Program-made: the position numbers and the translations under genes | DNA from: Pseudomonas putida | Lineage (GTDB): Bacteria; Pseudomonadota; Gammaproteobacteria; Pseudomonadales; Pseudomonadaceae | Direction of reading: 5' to 3' | Assembly (NCBI RefSeq): GCF_026625125.1 | Contig: NZ_CP113097.1 | Location: 3,596,001-3,660,000, forward strand | Length of the DNA stretch: 64,000 nt | Shown here: piece by piece, positions 4,398-28,039 of the stretch | Position numbering within the stretch: the stretch's first letter is position 1 | How the letters are laid out: the number at the start of each line of letters is the position of its first letter | The notes under the pieces: model-generated | The model's input: the letters and a program-made list of their open reading frames with translations, nothing else | What the model was told of the DNA's origin: nothing | The model's database searches: none

Positions 4398-5360
4398 ATG
4401 ACCCTCAAACAGCTCCGCTACCTGATCGCAATCGTCGAAGCCGGCAGCTTTTCCTCGGCCGCGCGTCGTGCCTACATCGCCCAGCCGGCGCTGAGCAGGC
4501 AGATCGGCCTGCTGGAGAGTGAACTGGAAATGCAGCTGCTCGACCGCCAGCACGACGGCATCGTCCTGACCGACGCCGGTCGGCAGCTTTACGAGGTGGC
4601 CCGCCAGGTGGTGCAGAAGCTCGATTCGGTGAAGGACGAGCTCAAATCGAGCCGCGGTGACCCCAAGGGCCACGTCGCCATTTCCATTCCTGCCACCGCC
4701 GCAGACATGCTGCTGCCAGAAATCATCAAGCGTGACGAGCAGCGCTTTCCCGGCGTGACCCTGACCGTGTGGGACGGCCTGAGCCGCAACGGCGGCCAAG
4801 CCATCGAATTGGGCAAGGTCGACTTCGGCGTGGTGCCCAATGCCGAGGAGCTGGAGCATGTCGAGGCCGAGCCGATCTTCACCGAGGCGCTGTACTGGGT
4901 CGGCCCTTCAGCCGCTGGCGTCGCCGATACCATCACCCTGGCCGAAGCCGCCGCCACGCGGCTGGTGCTGCCACCAAGGGCACTGCACCTGCGCCGGCGC
5001 ATCGAACAGGCGGCCATGGAAGCCGGCGTACCGTTGGCGGCCGCCTACGAGCAGCAGTCGGCCCCCGGCATCGCCAGCCTGGTCCGCGCAGGGCTGGCGG
5101 CGACCATCAGCAACTGGCCGCCGCTGTGCGAGCTGCTCGAACCGACCCAGGCGCGGCTCATCGTCGAGCCACGCATCAGCCGCACCATTGCCTTGGCGCA
5201 CTCACGGCACAAGCCCCTGTCGTTTGCCGCCGGTTGCTTGCACGACCTGGTGCGCGGGCTGCTGATCGAGCTGGTACTCGGCGGCCGCTGGCGTGGTGAG
5301 CTGATCGGCGGCGATGACGCGCCGCTCGGGTCGGTGCCGGGGGTTCAGCTGGCTGTCTGA
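4398..5360 (+). CDS. LysR-family transcriptional regulator (Nac/CynR-like group)
   Basis: The 320-residue product has an N-terminal winged helix-turn-helix (MTLKQLRYLIAIVEAGSFSSAARR, QPALSRQI) and a LysR substrate domain. The opening and the linker resemble the Nac group of LysR proteins. It is divergent from the DUF1329 gene with a 155-nt intergenic region and convergent with the MFS gene, whose 3' end it overlaps by 16 nt. Its likely targets are the DUF1329 gene and itself. The effector cannot be inferred. Confidence 0.85.
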   Translation: MTLKQLRYLIAIVEAGSFSSAARRAYIAQPALSRQIGLLESELEMQLLDRQHDGIVLTDAGRQLYEVARQVVQKLDSVKDELKSSRGDPKGHVAISIPATAADMLLPEIIKRDEQRFPGVTLTVWDGLSRNGGQAIELGKVDFGVVPNAEELEHVEAEPIFTEALYWVGPSAAGVADTITLAEAAATRLVLPPRALHLRRRIEQAAMEAGVPLAAAYEQQSAPGIASLVRAGLAATISNWPPLCELLEPTQARLIVEPRISRTIALAHSRHKPLSFAAGCLHDLVRGLLIELVLGGRWRGELIGGDDAPLGSVPGVQLAV

Positions 5361-19415: not shown

Positions 19416-20345
19416 TTGCTCAATGAACAACGCTTGAAGGGCATTGCGGTCTTCATTTGCGTGGCAGAGGCCGGAAGCTTCACTGCTGCGGCCGAACGCA
19501 TGAGCCTGACCACCTCCGCCGTCAGTAAAAGCGTGACCCGGCTGGAGCAACGCCTGAACATGAAGCTCTTCGCACGCACCACACGGCGCTTGGCGCTGAC
19601 CGATGCGGGAGCCGATTACTACCAGACCTGCAAGCAGATCCTGGCCAGCCTTGAAGAGGCCGAAATGCAGATGCACAGTGCCCAGGTCGAGCCCTGTGGC
19701 CGGGTGCGCATCGACTTGCCTGCTTCTTACGGCAAACTGCGGGTACTGCCCTTGCTCATCGAGCTGATTGCCGAGCATGAGCTGCTGATGCCACATATCA
19801 CGCTCACGGACCGCTTCCTCGACCCCATCGAGCATGACATCGACATCCTGGTGCGCATTGGCGGGCCGCACATCTGGCCCCAAGGTGTAGAGCGGCGGCT
19901 GATTGGCGTGCAGCAGCACATCTTTTGCGCCGCACCGGGTTATCTGCAACGCCGGGGCGTGCCTGAAACGGAACGGGACCTCCATGAGCACGGCTGCGTG
20001 CTTTATGGCAGGACCGACGGCGGTGTATATCCGCTGCACTTCCCAGGTGCCCATGCCAGTGACAGCGAGCAGCGCGTGGTCTCGGGCCGTATTGCCATCG
20101 GCAACGCAGAAGGCCAGCTTGCCATGGTGCTGGCCGGGCTGGGAGTGGGCCAGTTGCCCTCCTGGCTGGTGCAGGAGCATCTTGATGCGGGCTCGCTGGT
20201 CCAGATCCTGCCGCAGCTGAGCACCACCGGCCTGCCTATCAACGTCGCATGGCTGAAAAGCCGGCAGTCGCTTCCCAAAGTAGCCGCATTGGTCGATGCC
20301 ATCTGCACCAGGCTGAGCGAGCAAGCAACAGCCAACGCCGGCTAG
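19416..20345 (+). CDS. LysR-family regulator (PtxR/YafC-like group), TTG start
   Basis: The 309-residue protein has a LysR helix-turn-helix (LKGIAVFICVAEAGSFTAAAERM, TTSAVSKSVTRLEQRL) and an effector domain of the AaeR/YafC type. No ATG lies near the start; TTG 19416 is preceded by GGAGG with a 5-nt spacer, better placed than TTG 19404, which overlaps the Shine-Dalgarno sequence. It is divergent from the MFS exporter. Its stop overlaps that of the LitR-like gene by 4 nt in convergent orientation. Confidence 0.82.
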   Translation: MLNEQRLKGIAVFICVAEAGSFTAAAERMSLTTSAVSKSVTRLEQRLNMKLFARTTRRLALTDAGADYYQTCKQILASLEEAEMQMHSAQVEPCGRVRIDLPASYGKLRVLPLLIELIAEHELLMPHITLTDRFLDPIEHDIDILVRIGGPHIWPQGVERRLIGVQQHIFCAAPGYLQRRGVPETERDLHEHGCVLYGRTDGGVYPLHFPGAHASDSEQRVVSGRIAIGNAEGQLAMVLAGLGVGQLPSWLVQEHLDAGSLVQILPQLSTTGLPINVAWLKSRQSLPKVAALVDAICTRLSEQATANAG

Positions 20346-21289
20346 CGGGATTGCTCAGCGCTTTGCTTTCCTGGTGCAGGCTGGGTGGTCGAGAGCTCCA
20401 ACGCCCCCCTGAGCAAGGCATTGAGCATCGCGCCGGCATCACCACCCTGCCCCTCCAGCAGGCGCAGTGGAATACCCTTGAGCGCAGTCGCCGATTCGGC
20501 CAGGCCATCACCGAGCAGCGCCAATGGGCAGGCAATATCCATCTGCAAGGCGCGCAGACGATCTGCCAGGCCACGGCTCACAGGGGGCTGCACCAGCAGC
20601 ACCAGCGCGGCAGGCGCAATGGCTGCACACAACAGGGGCAACTCCTCCAGCGGTTGTTCGCTGCTGAGCACCTCAATCCGCTGCTGCTCGCCGCTCATCA
20701 GCAAGCCGTGGCACAGCAGTTCAAACTCAGCGCTGCCACCGGTGCCGGCCAACAGCACGCGAGGGGCGGCGGCCTGGTTCAACTGCAGGCGTAGCAGCAA
20801 ACGGGCGCGCAGAAAGGCATCGAGAAACAGCCACTGGCTCCGCTGGCCGTATGAGCTGCCTGACTGTAATGTGCGCCACACAGGCATCAGTATGTCGAGC
20901 AGCACCGTGGATTTGGGCAACAGTGTGAACAGCTGGCCATGAATGGCTTCTAGCGCCTGGCCATCGAACGCCAGGGTTGCGCGGAGCACGGCAGCGCGCC
21001 ACGTGGCATAGCCATCGGCAGCCGGTTCAACCGTTTGCTCATAGGCGTCTCGCCGCCTGGCCAGCATTTCGCTGACTTTGCTGATCGGCAGCCCGCTGGC
21101 GGTCCAGCGCAGTATGTCGCGGATGTGCTGCACATCCTGTGCGGTGTACAGCCGGTGACCACCCTCGGTACGCTGCGGCTGGATCAGGCCATGACGGCGC
21201 TCCCAGGCACGCAAGGTCACCGGGTTGACCCCGGTCAGGCTGACAACGTCACGCATTGGCAACAGGTCGGTGAAGGTCGCTTCGTTCAT
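20342..21289 (-). CDS. MerR-type regulator of the class II LitR/CarH group
   Basis: The 315-residue protein has an N-terminal MerR helix-turn-helix (VVSLTGVNPVTLRAWERRHGL, GGHRLYTAQDV). A long C-terminal region resembles the helical and cobalamin-binding-like parts of LitR/CarH, but I see no DxHxxG cobalamin motif, as in class II LitR. In Pseudomonas putida, class II LitR proteins (PplR) repress light-inducible genes and act with short LOV proteins. A short LOV gene is divergent here at 96 bp, and operators matching the published PplR consensus sit at neighbouring operon heads. I infer a light-relieved repressor. Confidence 0.85.
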   Translation of the reverse strand: MNEATFTDLLPMRDVVSLTGVNPVTLRAWERRHGLIQPQRTEGGHRLYTAQDVQHIRDILRWTASGLPISKVSEMLARRRDAYEQTVEPAADGYATWRAAVLRATLAFDGQALEAIHGQLFTLLPKSTVLLDILMPVWRTLQSGSSYGQRSQWLFLDAFLRARLLLRLQLNQAAAPRVLLAGTGGSAEFELLCHGLLMSGEQQRIEVLSSEQPLEELPLLCAAIAPAALVLLVQPPVSRGLADRLRALQMDIACPLALLGDGLAESATALKGIPLRLLEGQGGDAGAMLNALLRGALELSTTQPAPGKQSAEQSR

Positions 21290-21385
21290 TGCGGCGGATC
21301 ATCAGGGCGGTTACACATACTAAACCTATAGCTGCATGCAGGCTAAGCTGCGCATAAGCATACGCAACCACTTCAAGGAGGCCCC

Positions 21386-21832
21386 ATGATCGACGCAAAA
21401 CTCCTGCAATTGATGGTCGAGGCGTCCAACGACGGCATCGTCATTGCCGAGCAGGAAGGAAACGACAGCATCCTCATCTACGTCAACCCCGCCTTCGAGC
21501 GCCTGACCGGCTACGCTGCCGATGACATTCTCTACCAGGATTGCCGCTTCCTGCAGGGGCAGGACCATGATCAGGAGGCGCTGGACGCCATTCGCCAGGC
21601 CATCCGGGACGGGCGCCCGTGCTGCCAGGTGCTGCGCAATTACCGCAAGGATGGCAGCCTGTTCTGGAATGAACTGTCGATTTCGCCAATACGCAACGAG
21701 GCCGATCAATTGACGTATTACATTGGCATACAGCGTGATGTCACGGCCCAGGTGTTTGCCGAGGAAAGGGTACGAGAGCTGGAAGCAGAGGTGGCCCAAT
21801 TGCGCCGGCAACTGGATGAAAGGGACAGCTGA
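21386..21832 (+). CDS. Short LOV-domain photoreceptor (PpSB-LOV type)
   Basis: The 148-residue protein is a single LOV/PAS core with short flanking helices and no output domain. The flavin-adduct cysteine is Cys53 within the motif DCRFLQG, and NPAFERLTGY, NYRKDGSLFWNEL and YYIGIQRDVT complete the FMN pocket. The C-terminal helix (about 120-148) is charged and coiled, typical of dimeric Pseudomonas SB-LOV proteins. AAGGAGG precedes the ATG by six bases. It is divergent from the LitR-type gene, with which blue-light signalling is probably shared through protein contact. A rho-independent terminator is not obvious before the downstream operator region. Confidence 0.93.
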   Translation: MIDAKLLQLMVEASNDGIVIAEQEGNDSILIYVNPAFERLTGYAADDILYQDCRFLQGQDHDQEALDAIRQAIRDGRPCCQVLRNYRKDGSLFWNELSISPIRNEADQLTYYIGIQRDVTAQVFAEERVRELEAEVAQLRRQLDERDS

Positions 21833-21848
21833 CACGCCCATGCAAAAC

Positions 21849-21872
21849 TGTACAAAAATATGACCCTGTATA
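21849..21872. promoter_or_regulatory. LitR/PplR operator 1, TGTACA-N12-TGTATA
   Basis: The site fits T(G/A)TACA-N12-TGTA(C/T)A, the motif I recall as the class II LitR (PplR) binding consensus of Pseudomonas putida. It lies 61-84 bp before the first gene of the lipid-modification operon, where a promoter would be expected. Confidence 0.75.
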
Positions 21873-21899
21873 GCTTTATGCGGCGGGATCGACTATACC

Positions 21900-21923
21900 T
21901 GTACAAGAAACCATTTTTGTACA
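21900..21923. promoter_or_regulatory. LitR/PplR operator 2, TGTACA-N12-TGTACA
   Basis: A perfect palindromic half-site pair with 12-nt spacing ends 9 bp before ATG 21933. It is 51 bp downstream of operator 1 on the same helical face within about one base of five turns, suggesting that two repressor units may cooperate. Confidence 0.8.
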
Positions 21924-21932
21924 GGGCCGCGC

Positions 21933-22355
21933 ATGTCAAGCTACCTGCAAACCTTCGCCGAACGCTTTGCCAGCCTCGATGCGAACAACCTCGACCGCTT
22001 GGGTGACTTGTACAGCGAAGATGTCACCTTCCGCGACCCCTTGCACAAGATCGACGGGCTGAGCGACCTGCGCGCGTACTTTGCAGAGCTCTACGCCAAT
22101 ACCCAGGAGGTGCACTACACCTTCGAGGGTACCGACGAAGTCCAACCCGGCCACGGCTACATTCGCTGGACGCTGAACTTCCGCCACCCACGCCTGGCCA
22201 ACGGGCGCCTGATCAGTTTGCAGGGTTGCAGCCACCTGCGCTGGCATGAACGCGTGCACTTCCATCAAGACTACTTCGACGCCGGCGCACTGCTTTATGA
22301 GCATGTACCGGTGATGGGCAGCGCTGTGCGTTGGCTCAAGGGGCGGCTGGCATGA
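21933..22355 (+). CDS. SnoaL-like/NTF2-fold protein, first gene of the light operon
   Basis: The 140-residue protein shows the NTF2-like/SnoaL pattern: an N-terminal helix, LYSEDVTFRDPLHKIDG, LRAYFAELYANTQEVHYTFE, and a C-terminal strand with HFHQDYFDAGALLYEHVP. Proteins of this group precede SDR and amine-oxidase genes in LitR- or ChrR-controlled clusters. No catalytic function has been assigned. It starts 9 bp after operator 2 and its stop overlaps the SDR start (ATGA), which shows translational coupling. Confidence 0.85.
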   Translation: MSSYLQTFAERFASLDANNLDRLGDLYSEDVTFRDPLHKIDGLSDLRAYFAELYANTQEVHYTFEGTDEVQPGHGYIRWTLNFRHPRLANGRLISLQGCSHLRWHERVHFHQDYFDAGALLYEHVPVMGSAVRWLKGRLA

Positions 22356-23104
22356 GCCGCTGTTGGCTGACGGGCGCCAGCAGCGGCATCGGCGCTGCGC
22401 TGGCGCAACAGCTGCTTGAGCAGGGGCATCAGGTGGCGCTGGGTGGCCGGCAAGCGGAAAAACTGGCGCCGCTGGCCGCCCAGTACCCCCAACAGACGCT
22501 GCAGGCCATCGGCGATATCAGTGACCCTCGACAGGTCGCTGATGTTGCCGCGCACATCGAGCGCAACTGGGGCGCGCTCGACCTGGTAATCCTCAATGCA
22601 GGCACCTGTGAATACCTGGAGCCAGGCCATTTCGACCCAGAGCTGGTCGAGCGCGTGGTGCGCACCAACCTGCTCGGCGTCAGTCACTGCCTGCAGGCTG
22701 CCCTGCCCTTGCTGCGCCGCGGTCGACGCCCGCACCTGGTGGTGATCGGCAGCTCGGTATCCTGGCTGGCGCTGCCCCGTGCCGGGGCCTATGGCGCCTC
22801 CAAAGCGGCCGTGCGCTACCTGATCGAGTCCCTGCGCATCGATCTGGTCAACGAGGGCATCGATGTCACGCTGGTCAGCCCTGGCTTTGTCGATACGCCA
22901 TTGACCCGCCGCAATGACTTCCCCATGCCCCAGATCTGGAGTGCAGAGCGCGCCGCCAGGCACATTGCCGAGCGCATACCCAAGCGCCCGCTGGAAATCA
23001 ACTTCCCCGGTGTCTTCACTGTGGTACTGCGCCTGCTGGGCGCAATGCCGGTGCGCTGGCGACTGAAGCTAGGCCAGCGCCTGGCACGTAAGCAACAGGA
23101 CTGA
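22352..23104 (+). CDS. Short-chain dehydrogenase/reductase
   Basis: The 250-residue SDR has the cofactor motif TGASSGIGAALA at residues 7-18, the NAG motif (VILNAGT) and the catalytic Ser and YxxxK (GSSVSWLALPRAGAYGASKAAV). It likely reduces or oxidises a lipid-related carbonyl or hydroxyl with NAD(P)H. ATG 22352 overlaps the upstream stop by four bases. In homologous light- or singlet-oxygen-induced clusters it accompanies CFA synthase-like and DUF1365 proteins. Confidence 0.9.
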   Translation: MSRCWLTGASSGIGAALAQQLLEQGHQVALGGRQAEKLAPLAAQYPQQTLQAIGDISDPRQVADVAAHIERNWGALDLVILNAGTCEYLEPGHFDPELVERVVRTNLLGVSHCLQAALPLLRRGRRPHLVVIGSSVSWLALPRAGAYGASKAAVRYLIESLRIDLVNEGIDVTLVSPGFVDTPLTRRNDFPMPQIWSAERAARHIAERIPKRPLEINFPGVFTVVLRLLGAMPVRWRLKLGQRLARKQQD

Positions 23105-23111
23105 AATAAAC

Positions 23112-24359
23112 ATGCGCATCGCAATCATCGGCAGCGGCATTGCCGGCCTCACCTGTGCCTATCTGCTGTCTCGGCGGCATGAAGTCACCGTATTCGAGGC
23201 CGCCGACTGGATCGGTGGCCACACCCATACCGTCGATGTCCAATGGGGTGGCCGGCAATACGCTGTGGACACCGGTTTTATCGTGTTCAACGACTGGACC
23301 TACCCGCACTTCATCCGCCTGCTCGACCAGCTCAAGGTTGCCTCCCGGCCCACTGAAATGAGCTTTTCGGTGCATGACCCGCGCAGCGGCTTCGAATACA
23401 ACGGCCATGACCTGAACACGCTGTTCGCCCAGCGCAGCAACCTGCTATCGCCAGGCTTCTGGGGCATGCTGCGCGATATCCTGCGCTTCAACCGCAAGGC
23501 CATTGCCGACCTGGACAGCCAACGTATCGACGAGGCCACCACCCTGGGCGGCTACCTGCAGACGCAAGGCTATGGCCAGCGTTTTATCGACCACTACATC
23601 GTGCCAATGGGCTCGGCGATCTGGTCGATGTCACGCGCTGACATGCTCAGTTTTCCGCTGCAGTTCTTCGTGCGTTTTTGCCGTAACCACGGCCTTCTCT
23701 CGGTGAGCAACCGCCCGCAGTGGCGGGTGATCGAAGGCGGCTCGCGCAGCTACCTGGCGCCGTTGTGCAAACCCTTTGCCGAGCGCATCCGCCTCAACTG
23801 CCCTGTTGACCGGGTCAGCCGTGACGCAGGTGGCGTGACCGTGTTCAGCGCGGCCGGTAGCGAACGTTTCGACAGCGTGGTGTTCGCCTGCCACAGCGAT
23901 CAGGCGTTGGCCTTGCTGGAGGCGCCGAGTGCCGATGAGCGTGCAGTGCTCGGCGCCATCACCTATGCCAGCAACGATGTGGTGCTGCATACCGACACCC
24001 GGCTGCTGCCCACCCGACGCAAAGCCTGGGCCAGCTGGAACTACCGCCTTGGCGGGCCGCAACAGGCACCGGCTGCGCTGACCTACGCGATGAACATCCT
24101 GCAAGGTATCGAAGCGCCGGTGACCTTCTGCGTGAGCCTGAACCAGACCGCGCTGGTGGACCCGACGCAGATCCTCGCTCGCTTCAACTACGCGCATCCG
24201 CAGTACAGCCTTGTCGCCCTCGCCGCCCAGGCCCGGCAGGCTGAACTGCAGGGCCGCCAGCACAGCTACTTCTGCGGCGCCTACTGGGCCAACGGCTTCC
24301 ACGAGGACGGTGTGGTCAGCGCCTTGAAAGTGGCCGAGTGTTTTGGGGAAGCGTTGTGA
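23112..24359 (+). CDS. FAD-dependent amine-oxidase-like protein
   Basis: The 415-residue flavoprotein begins with the Rossmann motif IAIIGSGIAGLTCAYLLS and IGGHTHTVDV, typical of the NAD(P)-binding/amine oxidase group found beside CFA synthases. The C-terminus has SYFCGAYWANGFHEDGV, the second FAD-binding signature. Its relatives are thought to desaturate or oxidise modified fatty acyl chains in phospholipids; the reaction here is inferred. It is 7 nt after the SDR and overlaps the DUF1365 gene by 4 nt (GTGA). Confidence 0.88.
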   Translation: MRIAIIGSGIAGLTCAYLLSRRHEVTVFEAADWIGGHTHTVDVQWGGRQYAVDTGFIVFNDWTYPHFIRLLDQLKVASRPTEMSFSVHDPRSGFEYNGHDLNTLFAQRSNLLSPGFWGMLRDILRFNRKAIADLDSQRIDEATTLGGYLQTQGYGQRFIDHYIVPMGSAIWSMSRADMLSFPLQFFVRFCRNHGLLSVSNRPQWRVIEGGSRSYLAPLCKPFAERIRLNCPVDRVSRDAGGVTVFSAAGSERFDSVVFACHSDQALALLEAPSADERAVLGAITYASNDVVLHTDTRLLPTRRKAWASWNYRLGGPQQAPAALTYAMNILQGIEAPVTFCVSLNQTALVDPTQILARFNYAHPQYSLVALAAQARQAELQGRQHSYFCGAYWANGFHEDGVVSALKVAECFGEAL

Positions 24360-25168
24360 TCAGCAGCCTGTGCCACGGTTGGGTCAGCCATCGGCGCCTG
24401 ACCCCGCGCCAGCATGCCTTTCGCTATCGTATCGGCATGCTCTACCTGAACCTGGATGAGCAAACCCACCTGCTCAGCCTCAGCCGCTGGCTGGGGCGGT
24501 CGCGACTGGCGCCGCTGAGCTGGCGCGAAAGCGATTACCTGCCAGCGCTGACCGGCAATGGCACGCCACTGGCCCAGGCCGCTCGGCAATTGGTTGGCCA
24601 GGCGACCGGGCAAACGCCGGAAGGCGCCGTACACCTGTTGACCCAGCCGCGCTGCTGGGGCCTTTCGTTCAACCCGGTGAGTGTCTACTTCTGCCACGAC
24701 CAGGCGGGCCAGTTGCAAGCCATCCTGCTGGAGGTGCGCAACACGCCATGGCGCGAGCGCTTTCACTACGTATTGCCGGTGCAGGACGGCCTGTCTACCG
24801 GGTTTTCCGTGGCCAAGGCGTTTCATGTGTCGCCGTTCATGCCCCTGGACATGGAGTACCGCCTGCGTTTCTTGCTCGATGCGCGGCGCGTGCACGTGCA
24901 CATGGAGAACTGGCGCGAAGGGCAAAAGGTGTTCGATGCCGACCTGGCGCTGCAGCGCGGGCCGCTGGATCGCACTGCCCTGCACCGCCACATCCTGAGT
25001 TTCCCCTGGATGAGCCTGCGCACCGTAGCGGCCATCTATTGGCAGGCCTTGCAGCTACTGCTCAAGCGCACGCCCGTCCACGACCATAGCGCCAGCCTGG
25101 GCAACCTGAGCCTGGGCCAAGCCGCCTCCAAGGAGTTAGATGATGACCGAGCCCACCCTGAGCGTTAG
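24356..25168 (+). CDS. DUF1365 family protein
   Basis: The 270-residue protein matches DUF1365 (SSLCHGWVSHRRLTP at the start, LLTQPRCWGLSFNPVSVYFC near residue 100, KAFHVSPFMPLDMEYRLRF near 160). DUF1365 genes almost always lie between an amine-oxidase-like gene and a CFA synthase-like gene and are needed for some lipid modification. GTG 24356 is the likely start because it overlaps the preceding stop as GTGA and follows GGGGAAG. Its end overlaps the CFA-like gene by 26 nt. Confidence 0.88.
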   Translation: MISSLCHGWVSHRRLTPRQHAFRYRIGMLYLNLDEQTHLLSLSRWLGRSRLAPLSWRESDYLPALTGNGTPLAQAARQLVGQATGQTPEGAVHLLTQPRCWGLSFNPVSVYFCHDQAGQLQAILLEVRNTPWRERFHYVLPVQDGLSTGFSVAKAFHVSPFMPLDMEYRLRFLLDARRVHVHMENWREGQKVFDADLALQRGPLDRTALHRHILSFPWMSLRTVAAIYWQALQLLLKRTPVHDHSASLGNLSLGQAASKELDDDRAHPER

Positions 25169-26402
25169 CAAGTCCACCGGCCTGACACCGCTGCTTGGCA
25201 ACCTGGCCAGGACCGCCGTACTGGCCCAGTTGCGCGGCTTGGCCCACGGCAGTTTGCGGGTCATCTGCAATGATCGTCAGTGGACCTTCGGTGAAGCCGG
25301 CAGCGCCCTGCAAGCCGAGGTCGAGATCGTTGACGAGGCCGCCTGGAGCCTGGTCGCCAGTAACGGCTCGATCGGCGCTGGGGAAGGCTATATCCATGGC
25401 TACTGGCGCACCCCTGACCTGGCCGCGGTCACCCGTTTGTTCGTCGCCAACCTTGAGGTGCTCGATGCCATGGAGGGCGGGCTGGCACGCCTGGCACGCC
25501 CGGCCCTGCACCTGCTGCACCGGCTCAACCGCAACAGCCGACGCGGTGCGCGGCGCAACATCCTGGCCCATTACGACCTGGGCAACGCCTTGTTCGAACG
25601 CCTGCTCGACCCAACCATGATGTACTCGGCGGCGCAGTTCGAGAGCGCCGAGCAAACCCTGGAGCAGGCGCAACTGAACAAGCTTGAACGCATCTGCCAG
25701 AAGCTCGAACTCAAACCCCACGAACACCTGCTGGAAATCGGTACCGGCTGGGGCAGCCTGGCCATCCATGCTGCCACCCGGTATGGCTGCCGCGTCACCA
25801 CCACGACGCTGTCCGAGGCGCAGTACGCCCACACCCAACAGCGGGTGCAAGCGCTGGGCCTCACGCAACAGATCACGGTACTGCGCGAGGACTACCGCGA
25901 CCTGAGCGGGCGCTTCGACAAGCTGGTTTCGATCGAGATGATTGAAGCCGTCGGCCACCGGTACCTGCCCACCTACTTCCGCCAGTGTGCCGCCCTGCTC
26001 AAAGAGGATGGCCTGATGCTGCTGCAGGCCATCACCATTCGCGACCAACGATATGCCCAGGCGCGGCGCTCGGTGGACTTCATTCAGCGCTACATATTCC
26101 CGGGCGGTGCGCTGCCATCCTTGACCGTGCTGCTGGACACCGCCAGCCGCAAGACCGGGTTGAATCTGGTGCATATGGAGGACTTTGGCCAGGACTATGC
26201 CCGCACCTTGCGCCACTGGCGCGATAACCTGCGCCAGGCGCGCACGGCACTCAAGGAACTGGGTTACGACGAAACCTTCCAGCGCCTGTGGGAGTTCTAC
26301 CTGTGTTACTGCCAGGGCGGTTTCGAGGAGCGTGCCATCGGCGTGGCGCAATTGTTGTGGGCCGCGCCGAAGGCCCGTCGGGCGCCTTTGTCAGGTGCCT
26401 GA
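25143..26402 (+). CDS. Cyclopropane-fatty-acyl-phospholipid synthase-like SAM methyltransferase
   Basis: The 419-residue protein has the class I SAM motif LLEIGTGWGSLAIHAA near residue 200, the CFA signature region RRNILAHYDLGNALFERLLDPTMMYSAA, and SIEMIEAVGHRYL. It should transfer a methyl or methylene group to the double bond of an acyl chain in membrane phospholipids. The operon resembles the ChrR/LitR type that makes protective lipids, and UfaM-type methyl transfer towards furan fatty acids is an alternative to cyclopropanation. ATG 25143 is seven bases after AGGAG; ATG 25140 is also possible. Confidence 0.88.
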   Translation: MTEPTLSVSKSTGLTPLLGNLARTAVLAQLRGLAHGSLRVICNDRQWTFGEAGSALQAEVEIVDEAAWSLVASNGSIGAGEGYIHGYWRTPDLAAVTRLFVANLEVLDAMEGGLARLARPALHLLHRLNRNSRRGARRNILAHYDLGNALFERLLDPTMMYSAAQFESAEQTLEQAQLNKLERICQKLELKPHEHLLEIGTGWGSLAIHAATRYGCRVTTTTLSEAQYAHTQQRVQALGLTQQITVLREDYRDLSGRFDKLVSIEMIEAVGHRYLPTYFRQCAALLKEDGLMLLQAITIRDQRYAQARRSVDFIQRYIFPGGALPSLTVLLDTASRKTGLNLVHMEDFGQDYARTLRHWRDNLRQARTALKELGYDETFQRLWEFYLCYCQGGFEERAIGVAQLLWAAPKARRAPLSGA

Positions 26403-26404
26403 AC

Positions 26405-26893
26405 ATGTCCCGTACCTGGCTTGTCGCCAACGCCGTAGGGTTGCAGGCTGGCTGGTGGGTGTGTGTACTCGGCGCCCACACGCCCTGGTTGCTTGCGCTG
26501 GTACCGTTGGGCCTGGCGCTGCACTTGGGTTATTGCCATGAGCGCCGGGCAGAAGCGCGTGCGCTGCTGGCGGTAGGGTTTGCAGGTTGCCTGCTGGACA
26601 GCATCTTGGGGGCGCTGGGGGTATTCGCGTTTGCCCAGTGGCCCCTGCCCGGCTGGCTGGCCCTGATGTGGCTGGTATTGGCCAGCGGTTTACGCCACAG
26701 CCTGGCTTGGGCTACCCACCCACTATGGCTCGGGGCGCTGCTGGGACTGTTCGGTGGGCCGTTGGCCTACCTGGCCGGGGCGCGGCTGGCCGGTGTGGAA
26801 CTGCCGATGGGGCCCATGCCTACCGCCCTGCTGCTGGCAGCGGTCTGGGCGGTGGCATTTCCGTTGATGCTACGCCTGGCAAGAGCAACCTGA
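26405..26893 (+). CDS. DUF2878 family membrane protein
   Basis: The 162-residue protein has about five hydrophobic segments (WLVANAVGLQAGWWVCVL, then GCLLDSILGALGVF and ASGLRHSL) and matches the DUF2878 pattern. It starts 2 nt after the CFA-like stop, so it closes the operon. It is an inner-membrane protein of unknown role that travels with CFA-like and DUF1365 genes. It converges on the DUF3833 gene with a 1-nt gap, leaving no room for a conventional terminator. Confidence 0.85.
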   Translation: MSRTWLVANAVGLQAGWWVCVLGAHTPWLLALVPLGLALHLGYCHERRAEARALLAVGFAGCLLDSILGALGVFAFAQWPLPGWLALMWLVLASGLRHSLAWATHPLWLGALLGLFGGPLAYLAGARLAGVELPMGPMPTALLLAAVWAVAFPLMLRLARAT

Positions 26894-26894
26894 G

Positions 26895-27431
26895 TCACGG
26901 CACAGCCGTTGGCAGGCGGCGGAAGAACAAGGTGATCTGCCCAACCTCCACACCCAGCTTGCGCATGCTCGAGCGGTTGATCAGGGTGTCCTCATCCATC
27001 AGGTACATCCAGTCATCGATGTCCATTTCCCAATGCCGGCCGTCGACCGGCAGGTCCAGGCGGTAGCGCCAGTGCAAAGCATTGCCCGCAACCTCGCCGC
27101 GGGCTTCGCCGATCACATCGCCCGCACGCCCGCGCCAGCGCCCGGGGCCGTCCGGGGTCAGGGTCCAGGTGCGTTGCTGACGCGTACCGTCGCTGTACAC
27201 GAAGTGCTCGTCAAGAATCAGCCGGTCCCCTTCGCGGCGGCTGTCGATGCGCACATCGAAGCGTTTGACCACCTCCCCCGAGCGATTCTGGAAAATGCCC
27301 CAAGCCTGCACCGGCACGGAAAAGAATGTGACCAGGTCCAGCGCGGGTTTTTCACGGGCGTAATGGTCGACTTCGACATTGCCGCAGCTGGCCAGCAGCA
27401 GGCAGCCGACCAGTAGCAAGATTCTTCGCAT
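26895..27431 (-). CDS. DUF3833 family lipoprotein
   Basis: The 178-residue precursor has a lipobox (LLLASC, Cys near residue 16) and matches DUF3833 (KRFDVRIDSRREGDRLILDE, DDWMYLMDEDTLINRS). It is an outer-membrane or periplasmic lipoprotein with a lipocalin-like beta pattern. ATG 27431 follows GGAG by seven bases and directly follows the upstream stop. DUF3833 genes are consistent neighbours of CFA-like clusters, so it may bind or shuttle modified lipids; this is inference. Confidence 0.85.
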   Translation of the reverse strand: MRRILLLVGCLLLASCGNVEVDHYAREKPALDLVTFFSVPVQAWGIFQNRSGEVVKRFDVRIDSRREGDRLILDEHFVYSDGTRQQRTWTLTPDGPGRWRGRAGDVIGEARGEVAGNALHWRYRLDLPVDGRHWEMDIDDWMYLMDEDTLINRSSMRKLGVEVGQITLFFRRLPTAVP

Positions 27432-27433
27432 GT

Positions 27434-27988
27434 TCAATCTCCTGGTTCATTACCGGCCAGGCCGAGCAGGCGCTGGCGCAGTTGGGGGTCACGGGCACGC
27501 GGGTCCAGCCAGATACCAAAAAATGCCCGGGCGAATGCCGGGTCGGCGATTTCGCGACGCAGTTGGCCATCGACATAGAACCGACTGCCCTGCCCCGGCA
27601 GGTACACCCCGGTGATGCGCGTGCCTGGGCGCACATCGACGAACGCCCCGTTCATCGCCTGTGCCCAACGCTCAAGCGTGGCCTCGGCCAGAGGACGGTC
27701 GCTGAGGCGACGCATTTCATCGAGGCTGGCCTGCACCAGCGTGTCGCGTGACAGCTCCCGGTGGTAGCGAAGCTCCAGGGCAAACGGCTCATTCCAACCC
27801 TGCGGTGAGCCGGCGCTCCACAAACGGGCGGTATAGACACGCAGGCCGAACCAGGTGAACTCACCGCTGCCCACGGTGCGTGCGTCCGGCACCGCTGGCC
27901 GCCAGTCCGCCACGGCGGGTGGCAAGGCGGTAAGCGCCACGGTAAGCACGAACAGATTCAGGGCTGAGATAGAGCTGCGCATGGCCAT
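27434..27988 (-). CDS. Chalcone-isomerase-like exported protein
   Basis: The 184-residue precursor has a signal peptide (cleavage near AVADW) and the chalcone isomerase-like fold found in bacteria (SGEFTWFGLRVYTARLWS, then SRDTLVQASLDEMRRL, ending in FFGIWLDPRARDPQLRQRLLG). Members of this fold include fatty-acid-binding proteins, consistent with its lipid-modification neighbours. The start is ATG 27988 or 27982. It heads a two-gene operon with DUF3833 behind a LitR-type operator 28 bp upstream. Confidence 0.85.
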   Translation of the reverse strand: MAMRSSISALNLFVLTVALTALPPAVADWRPAVPDARTVGSGEFTWFGLRVYTARLWSAGSPQGWNEPFALELRYHRELSRDTLVQASLDEMRRLSDRPLAEATLERWAQAMNGAFVDVRPGTRITGVYLPGQGSRFYVDGQLRREIADPAFARAFFGIWLDPRARDPQLRQRLLGLAGNEPGD

Positions 27989-28015: not shown

Positions 28016-28039
28016 TGTACAAGTATATTTTCATGTACA
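28016..28039. promoter_or_regulatory. LitR/PplR operator 3, TGTACA-N12-TGTACA
   Basis: A perfect match to the same motif as operators 1 and 2, starting 28 bp before the chalcone-isomerase-like gene on the minus strand. It ties that operon to the light-responsive regulon. It also lies 212 bp upstream of the divergent MFS gene. Confidence 0.78.

Follow-up and report, generated by a model that had tools for sequence, protein, structure and literature searches.

Gene content and predicted operator sites of the snoaL locus

We analysed a 64,000 nt stretch of the Pseudomonas putida genome (contig NZ_CP113097.1, positions 3,596,001 to 3,660,000; hereafter the window), in which a class II LitR gene neighbours a short LOV gene and is followed by a presumed lipid operon headed by snoaL (Table 1). 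Between the lov stop and the SnoaL ATG the sequence contains TGTACAAAAATATGACCCTGTATA and then TGTACAAGAAACCATTTTTGTACA (sites 1 and 2), both of which are exact matches to the operator consensus T(G/A)TACA-N12-TGTA(C/T)A of the class II LitR proteins PplR and PmlR2. Direct reading of the sequence bore out the original prediction, which had placed two such sites, offset by 51 bp from start to start, in a 100 bp gap between lov and snoaL (intergenic positions 21833-21932), with site 2 ending 9 bp before the start codon; the consensus that it gave for PplR is printed in PMC9758184. A TATACC block abuts site 2 and is similar in many aligned relatives, its candidate roles being an initial transcribed region, a -10 element or an extra half-site. 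The CMAS-family methyltransferase of the presumed operon appears to be UfaM-like, judged by its syntenic position in the operon of P. mendocina (PMC9758184). The SnoaL protein was 100% identical in P. putida HAI-2, the nearest named record found.

A third exact site, absent from the original prediction, precedes a convergent unit that encodes chalcone isomerase-like and DUF3833 proteins. An exact operator was also found within 130 bp of the start of the chalcone isomerase-like gene in eight of the nine Pseudomonas relatives with the whole convergent gene in the locus (the miss being L100; L092 and L093, cut by the locus end, were not counted), and with the window site the cluster consists of a pair of convergent units, a LitR-type operator standing at the outer end of each. 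No site was found in two loci from other genera (L103 and L104) in which the chalcone isomerase-like gene is co-directional.

Table 1. Genes and predicted regulatory features of the cluster (window coordinates).
Feature	Position	Strand	Evidence or remark
Class II LitR/CarH-type MerR regulator, 315 aa	20342..21289	-	Pfam MerR_1 5.3e-15
Short LOV blue-light receptor, 148 aa	21386..21832	+	PAS_9; Cys53 in DCRFLQ
Operator site 1 (predicted LitR site)	21849..21872	+	TGTACA-N12-TGTATA, exact match
Weak candidate core promoter, overlaps site 1	21849..21876	+	TGTACA-N16-TAGCTT; weight-matrix score 3.7 (low)
TATACC block	21894..21899	+	Abuts site 2; similar in many relatives (alignment)
Operator site 2 (predicted LitR site)	21900..21923	+	TGTACA-N12-TGTACA, exact match
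SnoaL_2 protein, first gene of presumed operon	21933..22355	+	Pfam 2.7e-13
Short-chain dehydrogenase (SDR)	22352..23104	+	Pfam 7.9e-41
FAD-dependent amine-oxidase-type oxidoreductase	23112..24359	+	Pfam 2.9e-28
DUF1365 protein	24356..25168	+	Pfam 2.7e-78
CMAS-family SAM methyltransferase	25140..26402	+	Pfam 4.2e-90
DUF2878 protein, last gene of presumed operon	26405..26893	+	Pfam 3e-37
DUF3833 protein, second gene of convergent unit	26895..27437	-	Pfam 5.1e-68
Chalcone isomerase-like protein, first gene of convergent unit	27434..27988	-	Pfam 2.8e-13
Third operator (predicted), TGTACATGAAAATATACTTGTACA	28016..28039	-	Exact match; 27 bp before convergent unit start

Rarity of the motif and other sites in the genome

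With up to two mismatches allowed, the window contained 13 strand-hits to the motif against a mean of 2.74 in shuffled sequence, and none of 100 shuffles reached 13. The full-genome scan that the original prediction had suggested as a check returned the exact pattern at 8 places in 5.86 Mb and the reversed control at none, while at up to one mismatch there were 24 matches compared with 5 for the reversed pattern. A first-order Markov model based on the window composition put the expected number of exact sites in 5.86 Mb at 0.13 and that of pairs offset by 36-66 bp at about 1e-7. Given these expectations, the empty reversed control and the conservation of the sites in relatives described below, a chance occurrence was rejected as having a negligible probability.

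Three of the eight exact sites fall inside the window. Elsewhere, on a reading of the open frames, exact sites were found at the start of a DCC1-like/FolE gene pair (L001), in L002 with a DUF6482/photolyase-related pair on one side and a DUF1543 gene on the other, and upstream of rudS-litR1-phrB genes (L004), the last with a one-mismatch site 50 bp further up. In L004 a separate exact operator (4938-4961) serves as the predicted control site of an FAD gene of the amine-oxidase type that lies upstream of rudS, and a site with at most one mismatch was present within 150 bp of the start of this type of gene in all 18 relatives with room for one. Only a single site at up to one mismatch was found nearby at the promoters at 28016, of L001, of L002 and of the L004 FAD gene. 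The litR-lov gap (21290-21385) contained no match to the searched pattern at up to two mismatches, and operators of this pattern serving litR-lov themselves were rejected; P. mendocina expresses both pmlR2 and the LOV gene constitutively (PMC9758184).

We also noted an exact LitR-type operator in L003 (4951-4974; C1:3943850 of the same genome) upstream of a GAF-EAL gene, with a one-mismatch site 85 bp above it. The encoded protein is likely to be a c-di-GMP phosphodiesterase. L106, the closest GAF-EAL homolog, has an exact site before it too, and a site was found in 2 of 14 matches, the gene of this genome included; judged by these sites, light control of c-di-GMP through the GAF-EAL gene is possible.

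The LitR regulator and the short LOV receptor

The window LitR has an N-terminal MerR DNA-binding domain (Pfam) and matches Thermus LitR/CarH over residues 7-262 (phmmer, 3.9e-15). The top PDB matches of its predicted model (pLDDT 83, pTM 0.64, 26 aligned sequences) were CarH structures at about 1e-13, and in this model the protein folds like CarH, with a helical bundle and a C-terminal domain; residues 302-315 have a pLDDT below 50. The protein is 315 aa long, compared with 295 or 299 aa in 19 of the 20 other putida-type orthologs aligned, the exception being L066 at 315 aa. It thus has its MerR DNA-binding domain and overall fold in common with Thermus CarH and class I LitR, and differs from CarH at the RHEIG motif, the histidine of which binds B12. 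In the phmmer alignment RHEIG falls on SAEFE in the window protein, with alanine in place of histidine, and B12 light sensing by the window LitR is not favoured; a LOV protein probably supplies the light sensing. B12-binding_2-type and B12-binding domains gave no match to the window LitR at an E-value of 0.001, and the L004 paralog matched B12-binding_2 at 6.6e-5. Class II LitRs are called B12-dependent in PMC11417400, a description contradicted by PMC9758184.

Three LitR paralogs were found in the genome, with a common DNA-binding core that is invariant in an alignment of 26 such proteins (window residues 24-32 and 44-48 among others), and since they share this core a paralog could bind the sites besides the product of 20342-21289. 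The best PDB match of the LOV protein was 7a6p (7.4e-83, residues 1-143), which we take to be PpSB2-LOV of KT2440. The receptor has no effector domain, and its core cysteine carries the residue number given for PmSB-LOV (PMC9758184). At about C1:922-924 kb there is a further LOV gene, with 70% identity, close to another of the LitR genes.

Conservation of the operator pair

A SnoaL protein scan of named genomes found 39 loci, and in 34 of these (L066-L098 and L100) snoaL heads its operon. Left out of the 34 were two Pseudomonas loci (L099 and L101) in which snoaL is internal, behind litR1-phrB, with no pair at snoaL and a pair of offset 50 about 3.4 kb upstream, and three loci from outside Pseudomonas (L102-L104; Vreelandella, Aliidiomarina and Idiomarina) in which no operator site was found. 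Site 2 was present at up to one mismatch in all 34 operon-head loci and both sites (N12, up to one mismatch each) in 29; the five altered copies of site 1 comprised an N11 spacer (L085), N13 spacers (L091 and L094), a mismatch with N11 (L072) and loss of the left half (L098). A LOV gene lay beside snoaL in 21 of the 34, and 11 of the 13 loci without an adjacent LOV match retained both sites, so the operators are not favoured as a mere property of the litR-lov neighbourhood. The distance from site 2 to the start codon was 9-10 bp in 12 of 35 aligned loci (window included), 18-20 bp in 22 and 32 bp in one; the close position of the ATG, being confined to 12 loci, is not essential.

Two records in this set were unusual in themselves. 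L072 (P. monteilii NBRC 103158) has no SDR match, its snoaL, FAD, DUF1365 and ufaM genes stand at shortened distances from one another, and its operon looks partly deleted in the assembly. The record of L073 has a cluster of Pseudomonas type, and its label, Pantoea sp. Ap-967, is probably an error.

The offset between the two sites was followed across the genus with a pair pattern that left the gap free over offsets of 36-66 bp and required TGTACA as an outer half-site, so that pairs with TATACA at both ends were missed. It matched 200 of 298 genus genomes, with no reversed-control hit among the matches listed. At the 101 distinct places among the matches listed, the window's own pair not included, the offset was 49-52 bp in all but one (46 bp, 1; 49 bp, 11; 50 bp, 65; 51 bp, 20; 52 bp, 4), and an offset of 46 was seen in two genus genomes (G054 and G028). 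At the level of the order the pair was found in 6 of 145 genomes. This genus accounts for two of them, the window's own included (offsets 51 and 46), another genus of the family for two (50 and 50) and a genus of a different family for two (51 and 51). In the latter two (L123 and L124) the pair lies before rudS, with litR1 and snoaL behind. When 25 pattern-found pairs were examined (20 from the genus search and five from the order-level search), 22 preceded rudS, two snoaL and one phrB, at 19-70 bp from the estimated gene start. Since pairs stand before rudS, in another family as well, the arrangement may be older than the separation that left snoaL heading a unit of its own.

Comparison with published light-switch systems

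PmlR2, a class II LitR of P. mendocina, footprints two sites at P6650, the promoter of an operon of the same family, and a short LOV protein activated by blue light releases it (PMC9758184). According to this study, P6650 contains two TGTACA-N12-TGTACA sites, of which the first covers the -35 and the second falls between the start site and the ATG; the footprint is one broad region, from +32 to -45 on the sense strand and from +37 to -54 on the antisense strand, and PmlR2 elutes as about a hexamer. Replacement of both site-2 half-sites abolished PmlR2 binding, and an oligonucleotide with site 2 alone was bound. PmlR2 repressed runoff transcription in vitro and the illuminated short LOV protein restored it, and transcripts of phrB and ufaM rose about 25-33-fold in light. 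In a gel shift the LitR-LOV complex was still on DNA in the light, which conflicts with the SPR result of the same paper. The sections of PMC9758184 consulted hold no discussion of pair geometry, and the terms 'spacing', 'loop' and 'bp apart' are absent from its text; the literature matches listed contained no further primary study of the operators of class II LitR proteins.

The window shares with P. mendocina the pair of sites, an operon with SDR, FAD oxidoreductase, UfaM and neighbouring genes, and likewise genes, not far apart, for a class II LitR and for a short LOV protein with Cys53; the two sites are about 50 bp apart in both, the P6650 spacing being inferred from the printed footprint. 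The systems differ in that P. mendocina has a nine-gene operon from PME6650 that includes pmlR1 and phrB, whereas the window has a separate lipid unit headed by snoaL, and in that pmlR2 and its LOV gene are at another locus in P. mendocina but litR-lov stands beside the lipid unit in the window. The window also lacks the -35 sequence of P6650 and has its ATG 9 bp from site 2. The KT2440 system (PplR1-3, PpSB1-LOV and PpSB2-LOV; Sumi 2020, as given in PMC9758184 and PMC8508746) has the same consensus, three LitR and two short LOV genes; its regulon, in a different strain, includes phrB, ufaM, folE and cryB.

PplR1, PhrB, UfaM, FolE and CryB are among the products of 19 light-inducible genes of KT2440 (PMC9758184), and PMC8508746 reports that the short LOV proteins of this strain promote blue-light-dependent transcription of folE2, ufaM and phrB. 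A LitR-controlled operon encoding PhrB, LitR and RudS is described in PMC11417400. In PMC11014904, co-culture raised the expression of PP_0738-0742 with illumination kept the same, so there may be inputs other than light.

Promoter region of the lipid operon

No promoter of the sigma-70 type was found when 21300-22000 was scanned for the consensus. A simple scan between lov and snoaL found no terminator, and read-through from lov into snoaL is therefore possible. The weak candidate core promoter in Table 1 came from a weight-matrix scan based on approximate sigma-70 frequencies, and serves as a guide only. Among the sequences with a leader of at least 18 bp after site 2, 18 of 23 have TTGAC within the 62 bp that precede site 2; the form found in these relatives, TTGAC(T/C)-N16-TAnnCT, corresponds to TTGACT-N16-TATGAT of P6650 (PMC9758184). 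In the window subgroup (12 sequences with a 9-10 bp leader) TTGAC was found in none, and GGAG likewise in none compared with 22 of the 23 longer-leader sequences; TTGTAC-N17-TAGATT was the best-scoring candidate in five of the 12. Because the window has no TTGAC and no consensus promoter was found there, an arrangement with site 1 over the -35, as at P6650, is not demonstrable in the window. That the pair persists where the core promoter of the relatives is missing is mild evidence that the pair as such is under constraint, an argument that shared descent limits.

A proposed light switch and its alternatives

The pair very probably represents class II LitR operators that confer repression in the dark and LOV-dependent release in blue light, with both ends of the cluster switched. 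The LitR reading agrees with the printed consensus, with the expected flanking genes and with the two-site promoter of the same operon family in PMC9758184, much as the original prediction had supposed, and by gene content and synteny the pair precedes a class of genes known to be light-induced. LitR repressors encoded by 20342-21289 and by the two paralogs elsewhere would bind both sites and, in the dark, bar RNA polymerase from the promoter of the 21933-26893 lipid operon; occupation of site 2 could plausibly hit both initiation and escape. On exposure to blue light, the short LOV protein encoded next to litR, with its Cys53-flavin adduct, would bind LitR and remove it from the DNA, allowing transcription. 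The single operator at 28016-28039 would place the chalcone isomerase-like/DUF3833 pair under the same LitR control, and the lipid cluster would thus be switched from both ends. The motif, its rarity, its conserved geometry and the protein families of regulator and receptor are features of the window and its relatives themselves, while binding, repression, LOV-dependent release and light induction would be expected here from P. mendocina and P. putida KT2440. Against this explanation counts the finding that 295 of the 298 genus genomes have a LitR match and only 200 the exact pair; the three genomes without a LitR match also lack the pair, which is a weak test. The missing consensus promoter and TTGAC, the five altered copies of site 1 and the gel-shift result in PMC9758184 weigh on the same side.

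The assignment to LitR in the window strain is made by sequence comparison, and the sites might be bound by a different, unrelated regulator, but this is very improbable, for the motif is the printed class II LitR consensus (PMC9758184) and the sites adjoin litR-lov. It is also unlikely, though less so, that site 2 alone matters at the snoaL promoter and that site 1 is a decaying relic: the invariable presence of site 2 and the changed spacers or lost half of site 1 in five of the 34 operon-head loci would fit such decay, but the remaining 29 keep both sites, including sequences that have diverged between the half-sites. A refinement of the LitR switch that we regard as a serious possibility, if not quite the probable outcome, is that the offset of about 50 bp is functional, one LitR oligomer (or two that touch) bridging the sites. 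This would account for offsets of 49-52 bp in 100 of the 101 listed pairs when 36-66 bp were allowed, for the offset of 51 in two genomes of another family, and for the 51-52 bp kept in 11 of the 12 short-leader sequences that lack TTGAC (the twelfth, L072, has the altered site 1); the near-hexameric size of PmlR2 and its one broad footprint are consistent with it (PMC9758184). On the other side, promoter geometry (-35, -10 and start) could by itself hold the distance in most lineages, and the count is inflated by shared ancestry. Moreover, the promoters named above have one site only, the GAF-EAL sites are 85 bp apart, G054 and G028 have an offset of 46, and PmlR2 binds a site-2 oligonucleotide alone (PMC9758184). 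We put forward more tentatively a specific form of this refinement, in which a LitR oligomer would clamp the promoter at about five helical turns, and the constraint would have outlived the core promoter, lost in the window subgroup and perhaps re-made there from operator half-sites.

The light switch of the preferred LitR-LOV explanation was already known, and the window is a well-supported further example of it. The present analysis adds the near-constant distance between the two sites across many related bacteria and the third operator at the other end of the cluster. In a soil bacterium that is not phototrophic, membrane-lipid enzymes would be tied to a blue-light switch, the operator sites point to promoters expected to answer to that switch, and the conserved offset raises the question of whether LitR works as a single clamp or as a pair of roadblocks.
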